The notes under the pieces were generated by a model. The model searched no databases. It had not been told where the DNA came from and was given only the letters and a program-made list of their open reading frames with translations. Shown one piece after another: positions 8,372 to 19,769 of a DNA stretch of 20,323 nt. Each line of letters starts with the position of its first letter. Position 1 is the first letter of the stretch. The DNA is taken from positions 1 through 20,323 of IMG/VR virus record IMGVR_UViG_3300034374_006306. One strand, 5' to 3'. The translations under genes were made by a program, and so were the position numbers. This DNA comes from a virus.

Positions 8372-9523
8372 TTACCGCAGATGATATTTGCCGTGGTTCG
8401 GCTTGCCCACCTTTGAGAAGATCGCGTATCTCGTCGCGTCGATGGCGTGGTTGAATGCATCGACGGGCTTGTTCAGGTTGCGCCCGTCCTTGTCCTTCGT
8501 CCACTTGTAGTTCCGCAGCTCCTTTATGAGGTTGGTGCTCGAGGGGTCGACGTGCAGCTTGAAGGTCTTCATCAACTGGATGCCCGCGTTCACGCTGTCC
8601 TTCCCTTTGTCTGCGGGGCGCACGTTCCACCCCATGCGTCGCAGCTCCTCGATGCTCTTCGGCTCTGCGCTGTCGCAGTAGATGATGTCGCGCCTGTCGA
8701 TGTTGAGGTTCTTCAGCTCGCGCCCGATGTCTTGGTTGGTCATGTCGGTGCGGTATATGCGCTCCTTGATCCAAACGTCATCCCCCTGCGCCCACACCTC
8801 AACGAACGCGGTCGGGTCATTCGTGAAGCCGAAGTCCATGCCCATGCTCATCAGCTTCGCCTCCTTCGGGATTGGCTGCTCGTCGAATGTGAAGACGTTG
8901 TCCCTGCTGATCGCCCTCTCCCCGAGGCCGTACACTTGCCACGCTTGGGGGTCGGTATCCTTGAGCCGTTCGATGCGCTGAATGGTGAGGGCATCGAGGA
9001 AGGGGTTGTTTCGGTATGTGGACTTGATGAAGTGCGCCCGAGGGATCACGTCTTCATAAAGCCAGTGATATTCGTCCGACGGGTTGAAATCGATGTATAT
9101 CTGCTCGGTGGTTCGGAGCTCGAGCTGAAGGAAGTCCTCCTTCGCCAGTTCGTTCGCCTCGTTGCAAAAGAGGATGTGTCTCTTCGCTCCTCTCTTCTTC
9201 TGGGGGTCGTCCATCCCCATAAATTCGAAGCGGTTGCCGTTGATGAAGTAGATGTTGTCGCTCTTGTTGTGGAGGCTTTGGTCGTACATTCCCGCCTTCT
9301 CCAGTATCTCGAAGAAGTCGCGCATGGCTGTGGAGCGCAAGCTCTTGAGGGTCTTCCTTGCGATGGTGAACGTCTTGCCTGTGGTCTGGTGGGCTTTGAT
9401 GATGAGCACCTGCAAGATGCTGTACGTCTTCCCCGATCGGCTGCCGCCCTGATTGACGACGATGCTGTCGGTGGCCTCGAGGTTCTTCCTGAACAGGCCG
9501 GACGTCTCAAGGCGTGCTTTCAA
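8372..9523 (-). CDS. terL: Terminase large subunit (ATPase and nuclease), 383 aa
   Basis: This is the motor that cuts and packages phage DNA into the prohead. The Walker A motif QGGSRSGKT is at 25-33, Walker B ILFCNE at 117-122, and a coupling-type IDFNPSDEYHW at 144-154. The RNase H-fold nuclease shows MGMDFGFTNDP with Asp230, IYCDSAEPKSIEEL with Asp284, and HAIDATRYA with Asp362. Length and motif order fit the Terminase_3/PBSX-like family. The start is a TTG overlapping the small-subunit stop by 4 bases; an in-frame stop lies right before it and no other start precedes Walker A. Unusually, portal and capsid genes do not follow; a 112-aa gene and then tail genes do. Confidence 0.93.
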   Translation of the reverse strand: MKARLETSGLFRKNLEATDSIVVNQGGSRSGKTYSILQVLIIKAHQTTGKTFTIARKTLKSLRSTAMRDFFEILEKAGMYDQSLHNKSDNIYFINGNRFEFMGMDDPQKKRGAKRHILFCNEANELAKEDFLQLELRTTEQIYIDFNPSDEYHWLYEDVIPRAHFIKSTYRNNPFLDALTIQRIERLKDTDPQAWQVYGLGERAISRDNVFTFDEQPIPKEAKLMSMGMDFGFTNDPTAFVEVWAQGDDVWIKERIYRTDMTNQDIGRELKNLNIDRRDIIYCDSAEPKSIEELRRMGWNVRPADKGKDSVNAGIQLMKTFKLHVDPSSTNLIKELRNYKWTKDKDGRNLNKPVDAFNHAIDATRYAIFSKVGKPNHGKYHLR

Positions 9524-9849
9524 AAGTCATCGGCCTCTCTGATGACGATTTCGATCTCGTCGATTTTACTCACCTCCTGCTGTATCTGCTGCAATGGTTG
9601 TCCGTAGGCTGAATCGAGCAGGGCTTTGTAGGCTGCGACATCTCCGTCGCGTGCTTTCTTGATGATGGCGAGCGTCATGATGTCCTGCTGCTCGAGCTTC
9701 TCCTTCTCCCCTGTGATTGGGTTGGTGATGTACTGGCTCACCTCGAGCCACTCGCGGGCGATGGTGCTGCGGTTGCGTGAGCCCTTCGGTCGTCCGTTGG
9801 GGTTGCCGCTCTCTCCCTTTTTGAAGGGCTTTAGGTTCTCTTTTCCCAC
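9520..9849 (-). CDS. terS: Putative terminase small subunit (DUF5681-like), 109 aa
   Basis: The protein is expected to recognise the phage DNA for packaging. It starts with FKKGESGNPNGRPKGSRNRS (about 9-28), the hallmark of DUF5681-like proteins often found directly before large terminase genes, and continues with helices (DIMTLAIIKKARDGDVAAYK) and a C-terminal coiled coil of the kind that makes small terminases oligomerise. The start is a GTG 5 bases after the TET-like gene stop. The end overlaps the large subunit gene by 4 bases. The role is assigned from context and the N-terminal motif; a homing or regulatory protein is less likely. Confidence 0.75.
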   Translation of the reverse strand: MGKENLKPFKKGESGNPNGRPKGSRNRSTIAREWLEVSQYITNPITGEKEKLEQQDIMTLAIIKKARDGDVAAYKALLDSAYGQPLQQIQQEVSKIDEIEIVIREADDF

Positions 9850-9854
9850 TGTTC

Positions 9855-10637
9855 TTACTCTGTTTTGTTGGCAAATGCTTTCAAGGGGTAAAAGATCAGG
9901 CTGTTCCTGTACCCGTCCTCAAAAGTTGGCTCAATGGGCGTGACCCCATGAACATTTCTCCACGCCGGATAGACGAGTATTGAGTTGTCGCATTGATCAA
10001 TCGTAGCGTCATAGTCAGGTACATGAAGGTTGCCCCCTCTGCTGTTTCTTCTTTTGGTGATGATGACGTTCACCGCGCCCTTTATGTTGCCTGTGTCTCG
10101 GTGATATGGTGCGCTGATATTGTAGTTGCTGATCGAGGAGGTGAACAGGCTGCCAAATTTCCATTGATCCGGCACGGCTTGAAAGAGTTGCTTTTGTCTT
10201 TGATGTTGTTCTGGCAGTATCTCTTGCATGAGTTTCTCGCTCTCGCGTGCAAGCAACAGCATGGCTTTGATGAATGTCTGGGCAGACTTCACTTGATGGA
10301 CGCTGCTTCTTGTAGGGTATGGCCGCTTCATGTGTGGCTTCGGCGCTACGCTTCCCAATATTGTCGAAAACTGACTGACCCATTCTTGCCCTCTGCTTTT
10401 AGCCTGCTTCTCTGTTCCGCGATTCATTCTGGATTTTGGGACTTTGTCGCTTCTAAATTCGTTGTCTGCTATTTCAGCGAGTTTCACAGCCTTCTCGGGC
10501 ATGCGCCTCAAAAAGAATCCGATCGCCTCGCCACCTTCGTAAAAAACACAATCCTCGGTGATGTTTGGCTCAATGCGCAGGGCCTTGTCTCCTATTTTCG
10601 TAGAGTGCTCCCTGTGCTTCAATTCAATCTTTTGCAT
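9855..10637 (-). CDS. TET/JBP-like 2-oxoglutarate/Fe(II) dioxygenase, 260 aa
   Basis: Predicted to oxidise the methyl group of 5-methylcytosine (or thymine) in DNA using Fe(II), O2 and 2-oxoglutarate. The C-terminal half has the double-stranded beta-helix signature: iron ligands His179 and Asp181 in YHRDTGN, a GGNLHVPDYD segment (201-210), distal His230 in RNVHGVTPIEP, and 2-oxoglutarate-binding Arg244 in YRNSLIFYPLK. Spacing and wording closely follow eukaryotic and phage TET enzymes (HRD..N; LHATTP; R-SLVFY). The N-terminal ~160 residues are not recognised and may bind DNA. ATG 10637 is chosen over 10688 and 10649 because it overlaps the FkbM gene stop by only 14 bases. The gene sits between an FkbM-type methyltransferase and the terminase, in DNA of lower G+C than its flanks. 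Base specificity cannot be read from the sequence. Confidence 0.82.
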   Translation of the reverse strand: MQKIELKHREHSTKIGDKALRIEPNITEDCVFYEGGEAIGFFLRRMPEKAVKLAEIADNEFRSDKVPKSRMNRGTEKQAKSRGQEWVSQFSTILGSVAPKPHMKRPYPTRSSVHQVKSAQTFIKAMLLLARESEKLMQEILPEQHQRQKQLFQAVPDQWKFGSLFTSSISNYNISAPYHRDTGNIKGAVNVIITKRRNSRGGNLHVPDYDATIDQCDNSILVYPAWRNVHGVTPIEPTFEDGYRNSLIFYPLKAFANKTE

Positions 10638-11316
10638 GACAGAAAACATTTGTGCATGCCGGAAACCAAGATTTCTGCCAAGTGTCATAATCTCTCGTCT
10701 TTATTCTGGCGGTGTTCCCGATGCTTGCAATTTTGTATTGTTCAGAAAGTTTGTCCATGACGTTCCAAAACCTCGGCAAACTAGGGTCGATGTCAAAAGA
10801 CCATTCAAAGACTAATTTTTTGAATTTGCGCGTGGTGCTTTCCAAAATCGGCATTTCAGCGCCTTCAATATCCATCTTCACGCAGGCTCCATCAGGAACG
10901 ACCTCGTCAAAATTGACGCAATCTACCTTCAGTCCTTTGCCGTTCCAGTTTTTGAACATGGAGTTGCGCCATACATTACCATTGTTGCCGACATAAAGTT
11001 TGGCCCGTTTGGTTTCATTGTGAACCAATCCCGCGCAGACAATATCAGCTTCAAAGTTGTTCAGCTTCAAGTTCTTTTCTATCATCTTGCAGTTGTAAGG
11101 GTCGGGTTCATAGACAGTCACCCTCGCCCCTTTGGAACATGCGAGAAGGGCAAAGGCTCCGACATTGCCACCGCAATCAATCCAATGCTCACCTTTCCTT
11201 ATCTTGTTTCCTTTTTTTTGGTACACATCACGTACGACTACCTCCTCAAAGGTCTTCATGTCGCTTGTCTCTCTCCTCGCAATAAATTTGATGCCGTTGT
11301 GCTCCGTTGTCTTCAT
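10624..11316 (-). CDS. FkbM-family SAM-dependent methyltransferase, 230 aa
   Basis: The family usually O-methylates hydroxyl groups. Motif I reads HWIDCGGNVGAFALLA (43-58), followed by the acidic strand VYEPDPYNCKMIEKNL (67-83) and the FkbM hallmark VKMDIEGAEMPIL (about 146-158). The length fits a single-domain enzyme without extra domains. ATG 11316 overlaps the ParB-fold gene stop by 4 bases, and the gene's end overlaps the dioxygenase start by 14, so the three are translationally coupled. Context suggests the substrate is the product of the dioxygenase, for example a hydroxymethylated base, rather than a small metabolite; a sugar or lipid substrate cannot be excluded. Base composition is visibly more AT-rich than the flanking terminase and replication genes. 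Confidence 0.85.
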   Translation of the reverse strand: MKTTEHNGIKFIARRETSDMKTFEEVVVRDVYQKKGNKIRKGEHWIDCGGNVGAFALLACSKGARVTVYEPDPYNCKMIEKNLKLNNFEADIVCAGLVHNETKRAKLYVGNNGNVWRNSMFKNWNGKGLKVDCVNFDEVVPDGACVKMDIEGAEMPILESTTRKFKKLVFEWSFDIDPSLPRFWNVMDKLSEQYKIASIGNTARIKTRDYDTWQKSWFPACTNVFCHAKD

Positions 11317-11885
11317 ATTTTACCCTTCTCTGATTTCAAGAAGTCCAAAATCATTTTGCCGACATAGGCGTCTTGCTCTCTCCAGAATTTCACAATCTCA
11401 AAGGCTTCTTCATAGTGCTCGGGCTCAAATTCAATCTGAATCGCCTTTTTGACGCCGAGGGCCATATCTTCGATTTGATCGTCCACTTCATCCTCGTCAT
11501 CCAAAAGCGAGTAGTCTAAATCCTCATTGGGCTGCCACACATCCAAACCCCAGTCTCCCAGCTCTTCCTCATCCCACTCGTTGGCGAGGGCATCCCAATC
11601 CCATTCCCCGAAGCCGACGTTGTCCTTGATGATGAACTGCCGCTGCTTCACTTCATCCCATGATGCGATATAGACGGGAGCTTCTTCCACCCCTGCCTCG
11701 CGGAGTGCCTTCAGCCTCATGTTGCCACCCAAGACCACCATGTCGGGGTTGACTACGACCGGGCGAGCCTCGAGCATCTCGGGGAACTCCTTGATGGACT
11801 TCACGAGCTTCTTGAACTTTCCGTCCCGAATGATTCGCGGGTTGTTCGGGTTGGCTTTGATTTTGTTGAGCTTTATTCTTTCCAT
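11313..11885 (-). CDS. ParB/Srx-fold protein, 190 aa (upstream of the modification and terminase genes)
   Basis: The N-terminal domain has the ParB-fold pattern IKANPNNPR (9-17), VVVNPDMVVLGGNMRLKAL (43-61, with the nucleotide-binding-type GGNMR at 53-57) and APVYIASW. An acidic linker (about 115-140, rich in Asp/Glu) leads to a C-terminal helical domain (EFEPEHYEEAFEIVKFW). Phage proteins of this form usually sit close to terminase genes; proposed roles include nuclease or nucleotide-dependent activity on DNA, and ParB-fold proteins have been proposed as partners in DNA base modification. It overlaps the FkbM gene by 4 bases. It is one of two ParB-fold proteins in the window; the other is at 16523-17335. 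Confidence 0.85.
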   Translation of the reverse strand: MERIKLNKIKANPNNPRIIRDGKFKKLVKSIKEFPEMLEARPVVVNPDMVVLGGNMRLKALREAGVEEAPVYIASWDEVKQRQFIIKDNVGFGEWDWDALANEWDEEELGDWGLDVWQPNEDLDYSLLDDEDEVDDQIEDMALGVKKAIQIEFEPEHYEEAFEIVKFWREQDAYVGKMILDFLKSEKGKI

Positions 11886-13021: not shown

Positions 13022-13380
13022 GCTTTCGTGTGTTGGTTTAGGTAATCGTTGACAATGTTCTGAAACTCCTCGACCGATCTGGCGAGGGCGTAAATATAGC
13101 CATGCGCCTCGACATGGGTCTGCCACGCCTTCTGATGGTCGGTCTGCCTGCCCTTTGGTGTCTTCATCTCGATACACAGGCCGTGGAAGTCGTGCGAGGG
13201 GATCAGAAGGATGAGGTCGGAGACTCCGGCCACCACGCCCTCGAGCTTCATGCGCTTCGCTGTGGAGATGTTGCGGAAGCCTCCGTTCGGGACAGAGAAG
13301 AGGAGCTTGCGATGCTGCGGGTACTGCATCCGAAACCATTTCACGCAGGCCATCTGAAGGCGGCTTTCATCTTGTTTCAT
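13018..13380 (-). CDS. VRR-NUC domain nuclease, 120 aa
   Basis: Stand-alone VRR-NUC proteins are PD-(D/E)XK nucleases of phages, active on branched or structured DNA. Visible here: Glu5, a VPNGGFRN segment (30-37), KLEGVVAGVSDL with Asp55, the core IEMKTPKG with Glu71 and Lys73, and Gln83 in DHQKAW, followed by YIYALARSVEEF. All expected catalytic positions are present and the length is typical. The gene overlaps the methyltransferase by 14 bases upstream and the DnaA-like gene by 4 bases downstream. It likely acts in recombination or in resolving replication intermediates. Confidence 0.9.
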   Translation of the reverse strand: MKQDESRLQMACVKWFRMQYPQHRKLLFSVPNGGFRNISTAKRMKLEGVVAGVSDLILLIPSHDFHGLCIEMKTPKGRQTDHQKAWQTHVEAHGYIYALARSVEEFQNIVNDYLNQHTKA

Positions 13381-19112: not shown

Positions 19113-19769
19113 ATGGTCTACATAATGCAATGCGGTGAGTTCTTTAAGATTGGAATGTCTAACAATCCAGAACAAAGGCGCGTGACTTTGCAAGGCGCAA
19201 GCCCTTACGAGGTGGTGCTTATAGCACAAAAAAAAGTTTCCAATGACAGGGATTTTGAGGCTGGCCTACACAAAGAATTTGAAGATCACCATATTCGCGG
19301 AGAGTGGTTTGGAATGAGGCCTGAATTGATTGAGAGTCTTATAACGAAACACAATTTCGATTTTATCAATAACATCTCAAAAATGCATGACTTGCACTTC
19401 TCTCTAAAAATTGAAAGAGAATTACAAAAAAGCAAAAAGAATTGGGAAGCATTAAAACATCAGGCTTTATATCGTGCATACTGGAGGGGCTACAAACATG
19501 GGGAAGAGGTTGGAGAAAGGAACAAGAGAAAAGAAATACAATCTGCTTTAGGTTTAAGTGAAGTTCTTGATCTTGACAACGATAATAACCCACATTGGAG
19601 CAAAAGATTTTGCGAAGATTGCGATTTACCTGATAGTATTTGGGAAAATTTTGGTAGTTGGAAACGAATTCCAAAAAAAAATAGGCAGCAAATTTGGTTT
19701 AATTCAGACGCTCAAGAAGCGGTCGATCGCTTTCTGGATAATCTTGAAAGCAAACAGCCCAGCAAGTAG
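19113..19769 (+). CDS. GIY-YIG-like (T5orf172/MUG113) nuclease-domain protein, 218 aa
   Basis: The only plus-strand gene. ATG 19113 starts directly at the conserved domain: VYIMQCGEFFKIGMSN (2-17), RRVTLQGASPYEVVLIAQ, then EAGLHKEFEDHHIRGEWFGM with the Glu and His positions of T5orf172 domains. A charged helical stretch (ERELQKSKKNWEALKHQALY) and a C-terminal region of unknown type follow. An open frame continues upstream but reads the early gene antisense. The gene is strikingly AT-rich compared with its neighbours and lies against the direction of transcription, so it was probably acquired separately, perhaps as a homing-type endonuclease or host-take-over factor. Its last 66 bases overlap the end of the spanin gene on the other strand. 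Confidence 0.78.
   Translation: MVYIMQCGEFFKIGMSNNPEQRRVTLQGASPYEVVLIAQKKVSNDRDFEAGLHKEFEDHHIRGEWFGMRPELIESLITKHNFDFINNISKMHDLHFSLKIERELQKSKKNWEALKHQALYRAYWRGYKHGEEVGERNKRKEIQSALGLSEVLDLDNDNNPHWSKRFCEDCDLPDSIWENFGSWKRIPKKNRQQIWFNSDAQEAVDRFLDNLESKQPSK

Follow-up and report, generated by a model that had tools for sequence, protein, structure and literature searches.

The Locus and Its Gene Content

The window analysed here, 20,323 bases long, spans an entire virus record. A run of five genes on its minus strand begins with a ParB-like protein of 190 amino acids (11313-11885) and continues through an FkbM family methyltransferase of 230 amino acids (10624-11316), a TET/JBP dioxygenase of 260 amino acids (9855-10637) and a DUF5681 protein that is possibly the small terminase (9520-9849; PF18932, 59.2 bits) to the terminase large subunit, TerL (8372-9523; PF04466, 101.3 bits); the last two genes form a constant downstream context. 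The coordinates of the cassette agree exactly with the original prediction, in which the ParB-like, FkbM and TET genes overlap by 4 and 14 bases and lead in one direction into the terminase genes. The reduced G+C content that it ascribed to the FkbM/TET stretch is also real and is deepest in FkbM (44.6%, the lowest of the genes measured), against 48.4% for TET, 50.8% for ParB, 56.9% for TerL and 54.0% for the window. Purifying selection on both the FkbM and the TET gene is strong (pN 0.09-0.19 versus saturated pS).

About 2 kb from the cassette, the window phage encodes a C5-cytosine DNA methyltransferase (13367-14455, minus strand; PF00145, 149.9 bits), an optional partner that could supply 5-methylcytosine (5mC). 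A 296-amino-acid open reading frame (13423-14313, minus strand; phrog_1008, 87 bits) lies inside this gene in another frame. Homologous nested frames are open in the C5-methyltransferase genes of six related loci (L003, L066, L027, L011, L014, and L086; 36%-68% identity) and share a C-terminal motif resembling NPxFVxEMMGFP; in L086, the final part of the nested frame is more conserved than the main frame there. From its sequence, the nested frame looks like a conserved overprinted gene.

Two other regions of the window can be compared with G001, a near-complete relative of 29,673 bases that is rearranged (apparently circularly permuted). An A+T-rich stretch at approximately 19055-19715 (about 37% G+C) does not align to G001 and is likely a recent insertion; it carries a plus-strand open reading frame that resembles, by eye, a GIY-YIG/T5orf172-type domain. 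A second ParB-like or GmrSD_N-like protein (16523-17341, minus strand; phrog_12305, 126 bits) differs in part between the window and G001.

Identity of the Cassette Enzymes

The TET protein matches the Tet_JBP family (PF12851) at 43.7 bits, above the curated cut-off of 34.9. Residues H179, D181, H230, and R244, corresponding to the HxD...H Fe(II) triad and the distal arginine for 2-oxoglutarate, are invariant among 34 TET relatives, as is the methionine at 10637, which lies downstream of another possible start at 10688. The top 26 Foldseek matches in the PDB to an AlphaFold2 model (pLDDT 80.7) are TET2, CcTet, NgTET1, and CMD1, with human TET2 first; a profile search against PDB sequences also gave a weak match to human TET2. 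By sequence and model, the product of 9855-10637 is a TET/JBP dioxygenase with its catalytic residues complete, a predicted oxidase of a 5-methyl pyrimidine in DNA. It also matches PHROG 6059 at 194 bits, a family labelled queuine tRNA-ribosyltransferase; this label implies no role on DNA bases and conflicts with the Tet_JBP match. Public labels misname other phage TETs as well: that of Prochlorococcus phage MED4-184 (L146, 17129-17914; 51% identical to the window TET) is labelled queuine tRNA-ribosyltransferase, and that of Pelagibacter phage HTVC112P (L217, 4094-5002) a DnaJ chaperone or SNF2 DNA repair protein.

The FkbM protein matches Methyltransf_21 (PF05050) at 44.8 bits (curated cut-off 22.7) and phrog_28597 at 252 bits, a family of unknown function whose label likewise gives no role on DNA bases. 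Its SAM-binding motifs (D47, G49, G50, N51, G53, E70, and D72) and a DxEGxE motif (DIEGAE, D149-E154) are invariant in 38 FkbM sequences. The structure model is that of a class I methyltransferase; Foldseek matches in the PDB were considered as a clue to the substrate and set aside, being generic class I methyltransferases alone, many of them RNA-acting. A profile search against PDB sequences gave a weak match to a single FkbM structure (2py6, E = 0.0055). The family is broad, and its members need not all be O-methyltransferases; the protein of the window is predicted to be an O-methyltransferase of hydroxymethyl pyrimidine in DNA. The ParB-like protein scores just under the cut-off for ParB_N (PF02195, 23.1 versus 26.3 bits) and matches PHROG ParB-like families strongly (E down to 4e-26).

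Linkage of FkbM to TET

All 80 of the closest FkbM relatives in IMG/VR adjoin a TET gene, and nearly all are preceded by ParB. Further scans, started from the family profile or from the FkbM of a Prochlorococcus or a Pelagibacter phage, again found FkbM adjoining TET. The pairing, which the original prediction suggested looking for in other phages, is present in 240 loci (some of which overlap within one contig) that encode 139 distinct full-length FkbM proteins. FkbM occurring as often without TET at this locus had been named beforehand as the outcome that would count against the prediction, and the loci show otherwise: the single FkbM locus without TET (L223) belongs to a lineage with TET upstream, and its contig starts 25 bases before FkbM. 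As a control, TET was found near FkbM in none of 80 cellular FkbM loci, within fetched flanks of up to 6 kb. With TET beside every one of the 80 closest FkbM relatives, and strong purifying selection on both genes, the coupling is real and more than chance. A scan of bacterial genomes for FkbM relatives, considered as a means of inferring the host, was abandoned for that purpose, as none exceeded 34% identity.

An Exchangeable Slot between ParB and TET

FkbM is one of several exchangeable occupants of a slot between ParB and TET, and TET is the constant part. Other phages carry there glycosyltransferases matching TAGT (PF20691) or phrog_842 (labelled beta-glucosyl-HMC-alpha-glucosyltransferase), other glycosyltransferase-like proteins, a four-gene block that includes a P-loop protein and ends in an amino-acid:DNA transferase (ADDT; PF18724), or nothing. 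Among 80 loci retrieved with the TET query, the slot holds FkbM in 32, glycosyltransferases in 36 and the ADDT block in 4, and is empty in 6 and truncated in 2. In pairwise DNA comparisons, homology stops at the borders of the slot gene. L083 and L003, for example, have ParB and TET in common and the gene between them not, as do L090 and L098; L107 and L114 are unrelated up to the start of TET and 92% identical from its first base onward. On the TET tree, a quick tree with one very long branch that makes the count of changes a rough one, the FkbM/non-FkbM state needs at least 13 changes, 5 of them forced by well-supported branches. Of the cargo block proposed to lie between ParB and terminase, the exchange is thus borne out mainly for the gene between ParB and TET, and TET itself has to be taken out of the block. 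Two TET slots (L122, 5823-8001, and L406, 4897-7106) contain TAGT-like, HAD/phosphotransferase-like and nucleotidyltransferase-like proteins, which may link an unusual activated moiety to the base.

A slot of this kind recurs, in another gene order, in a second, divergent TET lineage. The cultured Pelagibacter phage HTVC112P has the order ParB-TET-FkbM, with a TET that scores 103 bits to Tet_JBP and an FkbM 30% identical to that of the window. Among relatives of this TET, the slot follows TET and holds FkbM, FkbM with TAGT, a cytidylyltransferase with TAGT, or ADDT with a P-loop kinase-like protein. Two divergent TET lineages with unlike gene orders and the same set of alternative partners constitute an independent replicate. 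Since FkbM shares its slot with known or predicted tailoring enzymes of hydroxymethyl pyrimidines, the proposal that it acts on the TET product gains support.

The Base: Thymine or Cytosine

TET enzymes need a 5-methyl pyrimidine, and thymine is present in all DNA. A C5-cytosine methyltransferase is encoded in 4 of the 29 FkbM-TET records of at least 28 kb, a count that may miss some such genes where IMG/VR contigs are incomplete, and in none of 10 second-lineage records. It was not found in the records of the cultured phages MED4-184, MED4-117 and HTVC112P, the last of which is a complete genome. Thymine is therefore the obvious 5-methyl substrate in most relatives, for which we favour uracil (from thymine) over cytosine; thymine is the simplest common substrate and 5-methoxymethyl-deoxyuridine the simplest product. 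The alternative source of a hydroxymethyl group, a pyrimidine hydroxymethylase making 5hmdU at the nucleotide level, was rejected, as a thymidylate synthase family gene (PF00303) occurs in none of 22 FkbM-TET records.

G001 provides a natural swap of DNA methyltransferases. Over the structural half it matches the window at approximately 99.8% identity, and its ParB, FkbM, and TET are 100% identical to those of the window; in place of the C5-methyltransferase (window positions 13381-14464) it has an N6_N4 methyltransferase (PF01555; L149/L150).

A cytosine route throughout, in which a C5-methyltransferase of the phage or its host supplies the 5mC that TET oxidizes and FkbM yields 5-methoxymethyl-deoxycytidine, is doubtful as a general account. 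Phage TETs reportedly act on 5mC, the top fold match, human TET2, is the best-known 5mC oxidase, and the window phage has its own C5-methyltransferase close by. On the other hand, 25 of the 29 long records lack that gene, and in G001, where it is swapped out, a host methylase would have to stand in. Asn184 of TET was considered as a discriminator between thymine and cytosine and proved indecisive; it aligns, weakly, with the asparagine of the HRDxxN motif of human TET2 and, because human TET2 has asparagine at the aligned position, is no argument against cytosine. The original prediction's preference for cytosine accordingly does not extend across the family, while its central proposal, that FkbM acts on the TET product, keeps the backing of the constant linkage and of the slot. 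Because the window phage can make 5mC, its own product could also be on cytosine.

The Acceptor of the Methyl Group

FkbM could have an acceptor other than the TET-made hydroxyl, such as a sugar, another exocyclic position, or some additional group carried by the base. Sugar hydroxyls are common substrates of FkbM enzymes, and one second-lineage locus (L400) encodes both FkbM and TAGT; there, FkbM could be methylating a sugar. Against this, FkbM of the main lineage occurs together with a glycosyltransferase in none of 244 FkbM loci, and TAGT exceeds its cut-off in none of 29 FkbM-TET records, so that no supplier of a sugar is seen. Because TAGT is absent above cut-off from those records, the hydroxymethyl group, rather than a sugar, is the probable target of FkbM. 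We consider another acceptor unlikely overall, and methylation of a DNA-linked sugar is specifically disfavoured for the main lineage by the missing glycosyltransferase; the evidence there favours the hydroxymethyl oxygen itself.

It is very improbable that FkbM sits next to TET as unrelated cargo, such as a methyltransferase of the cell surface or of small molecules. The family is common in cellular genomes, the G+C content of FkbM is below that of its neighbours, and no TET is annotated among the neighbours shown for the distant FkbM-like genes of two other phages, Streptomyces phage Wakanda and Rhodococcus phage Trina; but the 139 distinct FkbM proteins always adjoin TET, in two gene orders and with two divergent TET lineages, and the slot is otherwise occupied by DNA-base tailoring enzymes. 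A demethylation-type role, in which TET oxidizes 5mC for removal or regulation, as eukaryotic TETs do, and FkbM stalls the intermediate, is scarcely credible, as the alternative slot genes encode transferases of sugars and amino acids, which are characteristic of stable hypermodification and not of repair.

Proposed Pathway

From the observed gene identities, catalytic residues, TET fold, constant linkage, exchangeable slot, and purifying selection, we infer the chemistry from its context, namely which reactions occur and in what order, which base is modified, and how the phage benefits. Using Fe(II) and 2-oxoglutarate, TET would convert a 5-methyl pyrimidine of phage DNA into its 5-hydroxymethyl form, and FkbM would transfer a methyl group from SAM onto the resulting hydroxyl, giving a 5-methoxymethyl pyrimidine. 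The cassette would act after replication, its product being a capped, hypermodified DNA base, and the ParB-like protein may help to position the enzymes on DNA. For most relatives, thymine would likely be the base and 5-methoxymethyl-deoxyuridine the product; for the window phage and the minority of relatives with a C5-cytosine methyltransferase, 5-methoxymethyl-deoxycytidine may also be formed. The modification would most likely protect phage DNA against host nucleases. We think it probable that the cassette makes a 5-methoxymethyl pyrimidine by TET oxidation followed by FkbM O-methylation, with thymine the likely base in most relatives. The more specific proposition, that a widespread phage group makes the undescribed base 5-methoxymethyl-deoxyuridine through TET acting on thymine and an FkbM cap, as a one-gene module swapped against sugar and amino-acid caps, is a tentative one, to which we give somewhat less than an even chance.

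Relation to Known Systems

The FkbM-TET cassette is a variant of TET-based DNA hypermodification and no new kind of system. Hypermodification clusters combining a phage TET with a C5-cytosine methyltransferase have reportedly been described; they resemble the present loci in that a Tet_JBP-family phage TET is encoded with DNA-base tailoring genes, and differ in that the tailoring partner here is FkbM and most relatives lack the C5-methyltransferase. In the kinetoplastid base J pathway, JBP1/2 act with a glucosyltransferase; there, as proposed here, thymine in DNA undergoes TET/JBP-type oxidation and the hydroxyl is then capped, but the base J cap is glucose and the system eukaryotic. TAGT cassettes and T4-type 5hmC glucosylation are related through the slot, which TAGT and related glycosyltransferases fill in sister phages; those enzymes should place a sugar on the hydroxymethyl group, whereas FkbM should add a methyl. 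A parallel in architecture is known from the thymidine hypermodification cluster of Rhodococcus phage Tonitrus, in which genes for ParB, a Tet-like protein, aGPT-Pplase2 and a 5hmU DNA kinase lie together (PMC11955845). ParB-like, Tet-like, and base-tailoring genes are thus grouped in both, and the Tonitrus TET is 31% identical to that of the window, but tailoring in Tonitrus is assigned to aGPT-Pplase2 and the 5hmU DNA kinase and not to a methyltransferase (PMC11955845). Our literature search found no paper with methoxymethylcytosine or methoxymethyluracil and none joining FkbM to a phage TET; an earlier mention may exist in the prediction literature (Iyer 2013; Burke 2021; Lee 2022).

The prediction is open to a direct check in cultured phages such as Prochlorococcus phage P-HS2 or MED4-184 and Pelagibacter phage HTVC112P. 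If it is true, an O-methyl ether would join the caps known from TET-made DNA bases, and the phage family phrog_28597 would acquire a function. The cap would be small and uncharged, and might escape host nucleases adapted to 5hmC or its glucosylated form. With a modular slot of this kind, the downstream base chemistry of a phage would be predictable from one gene.
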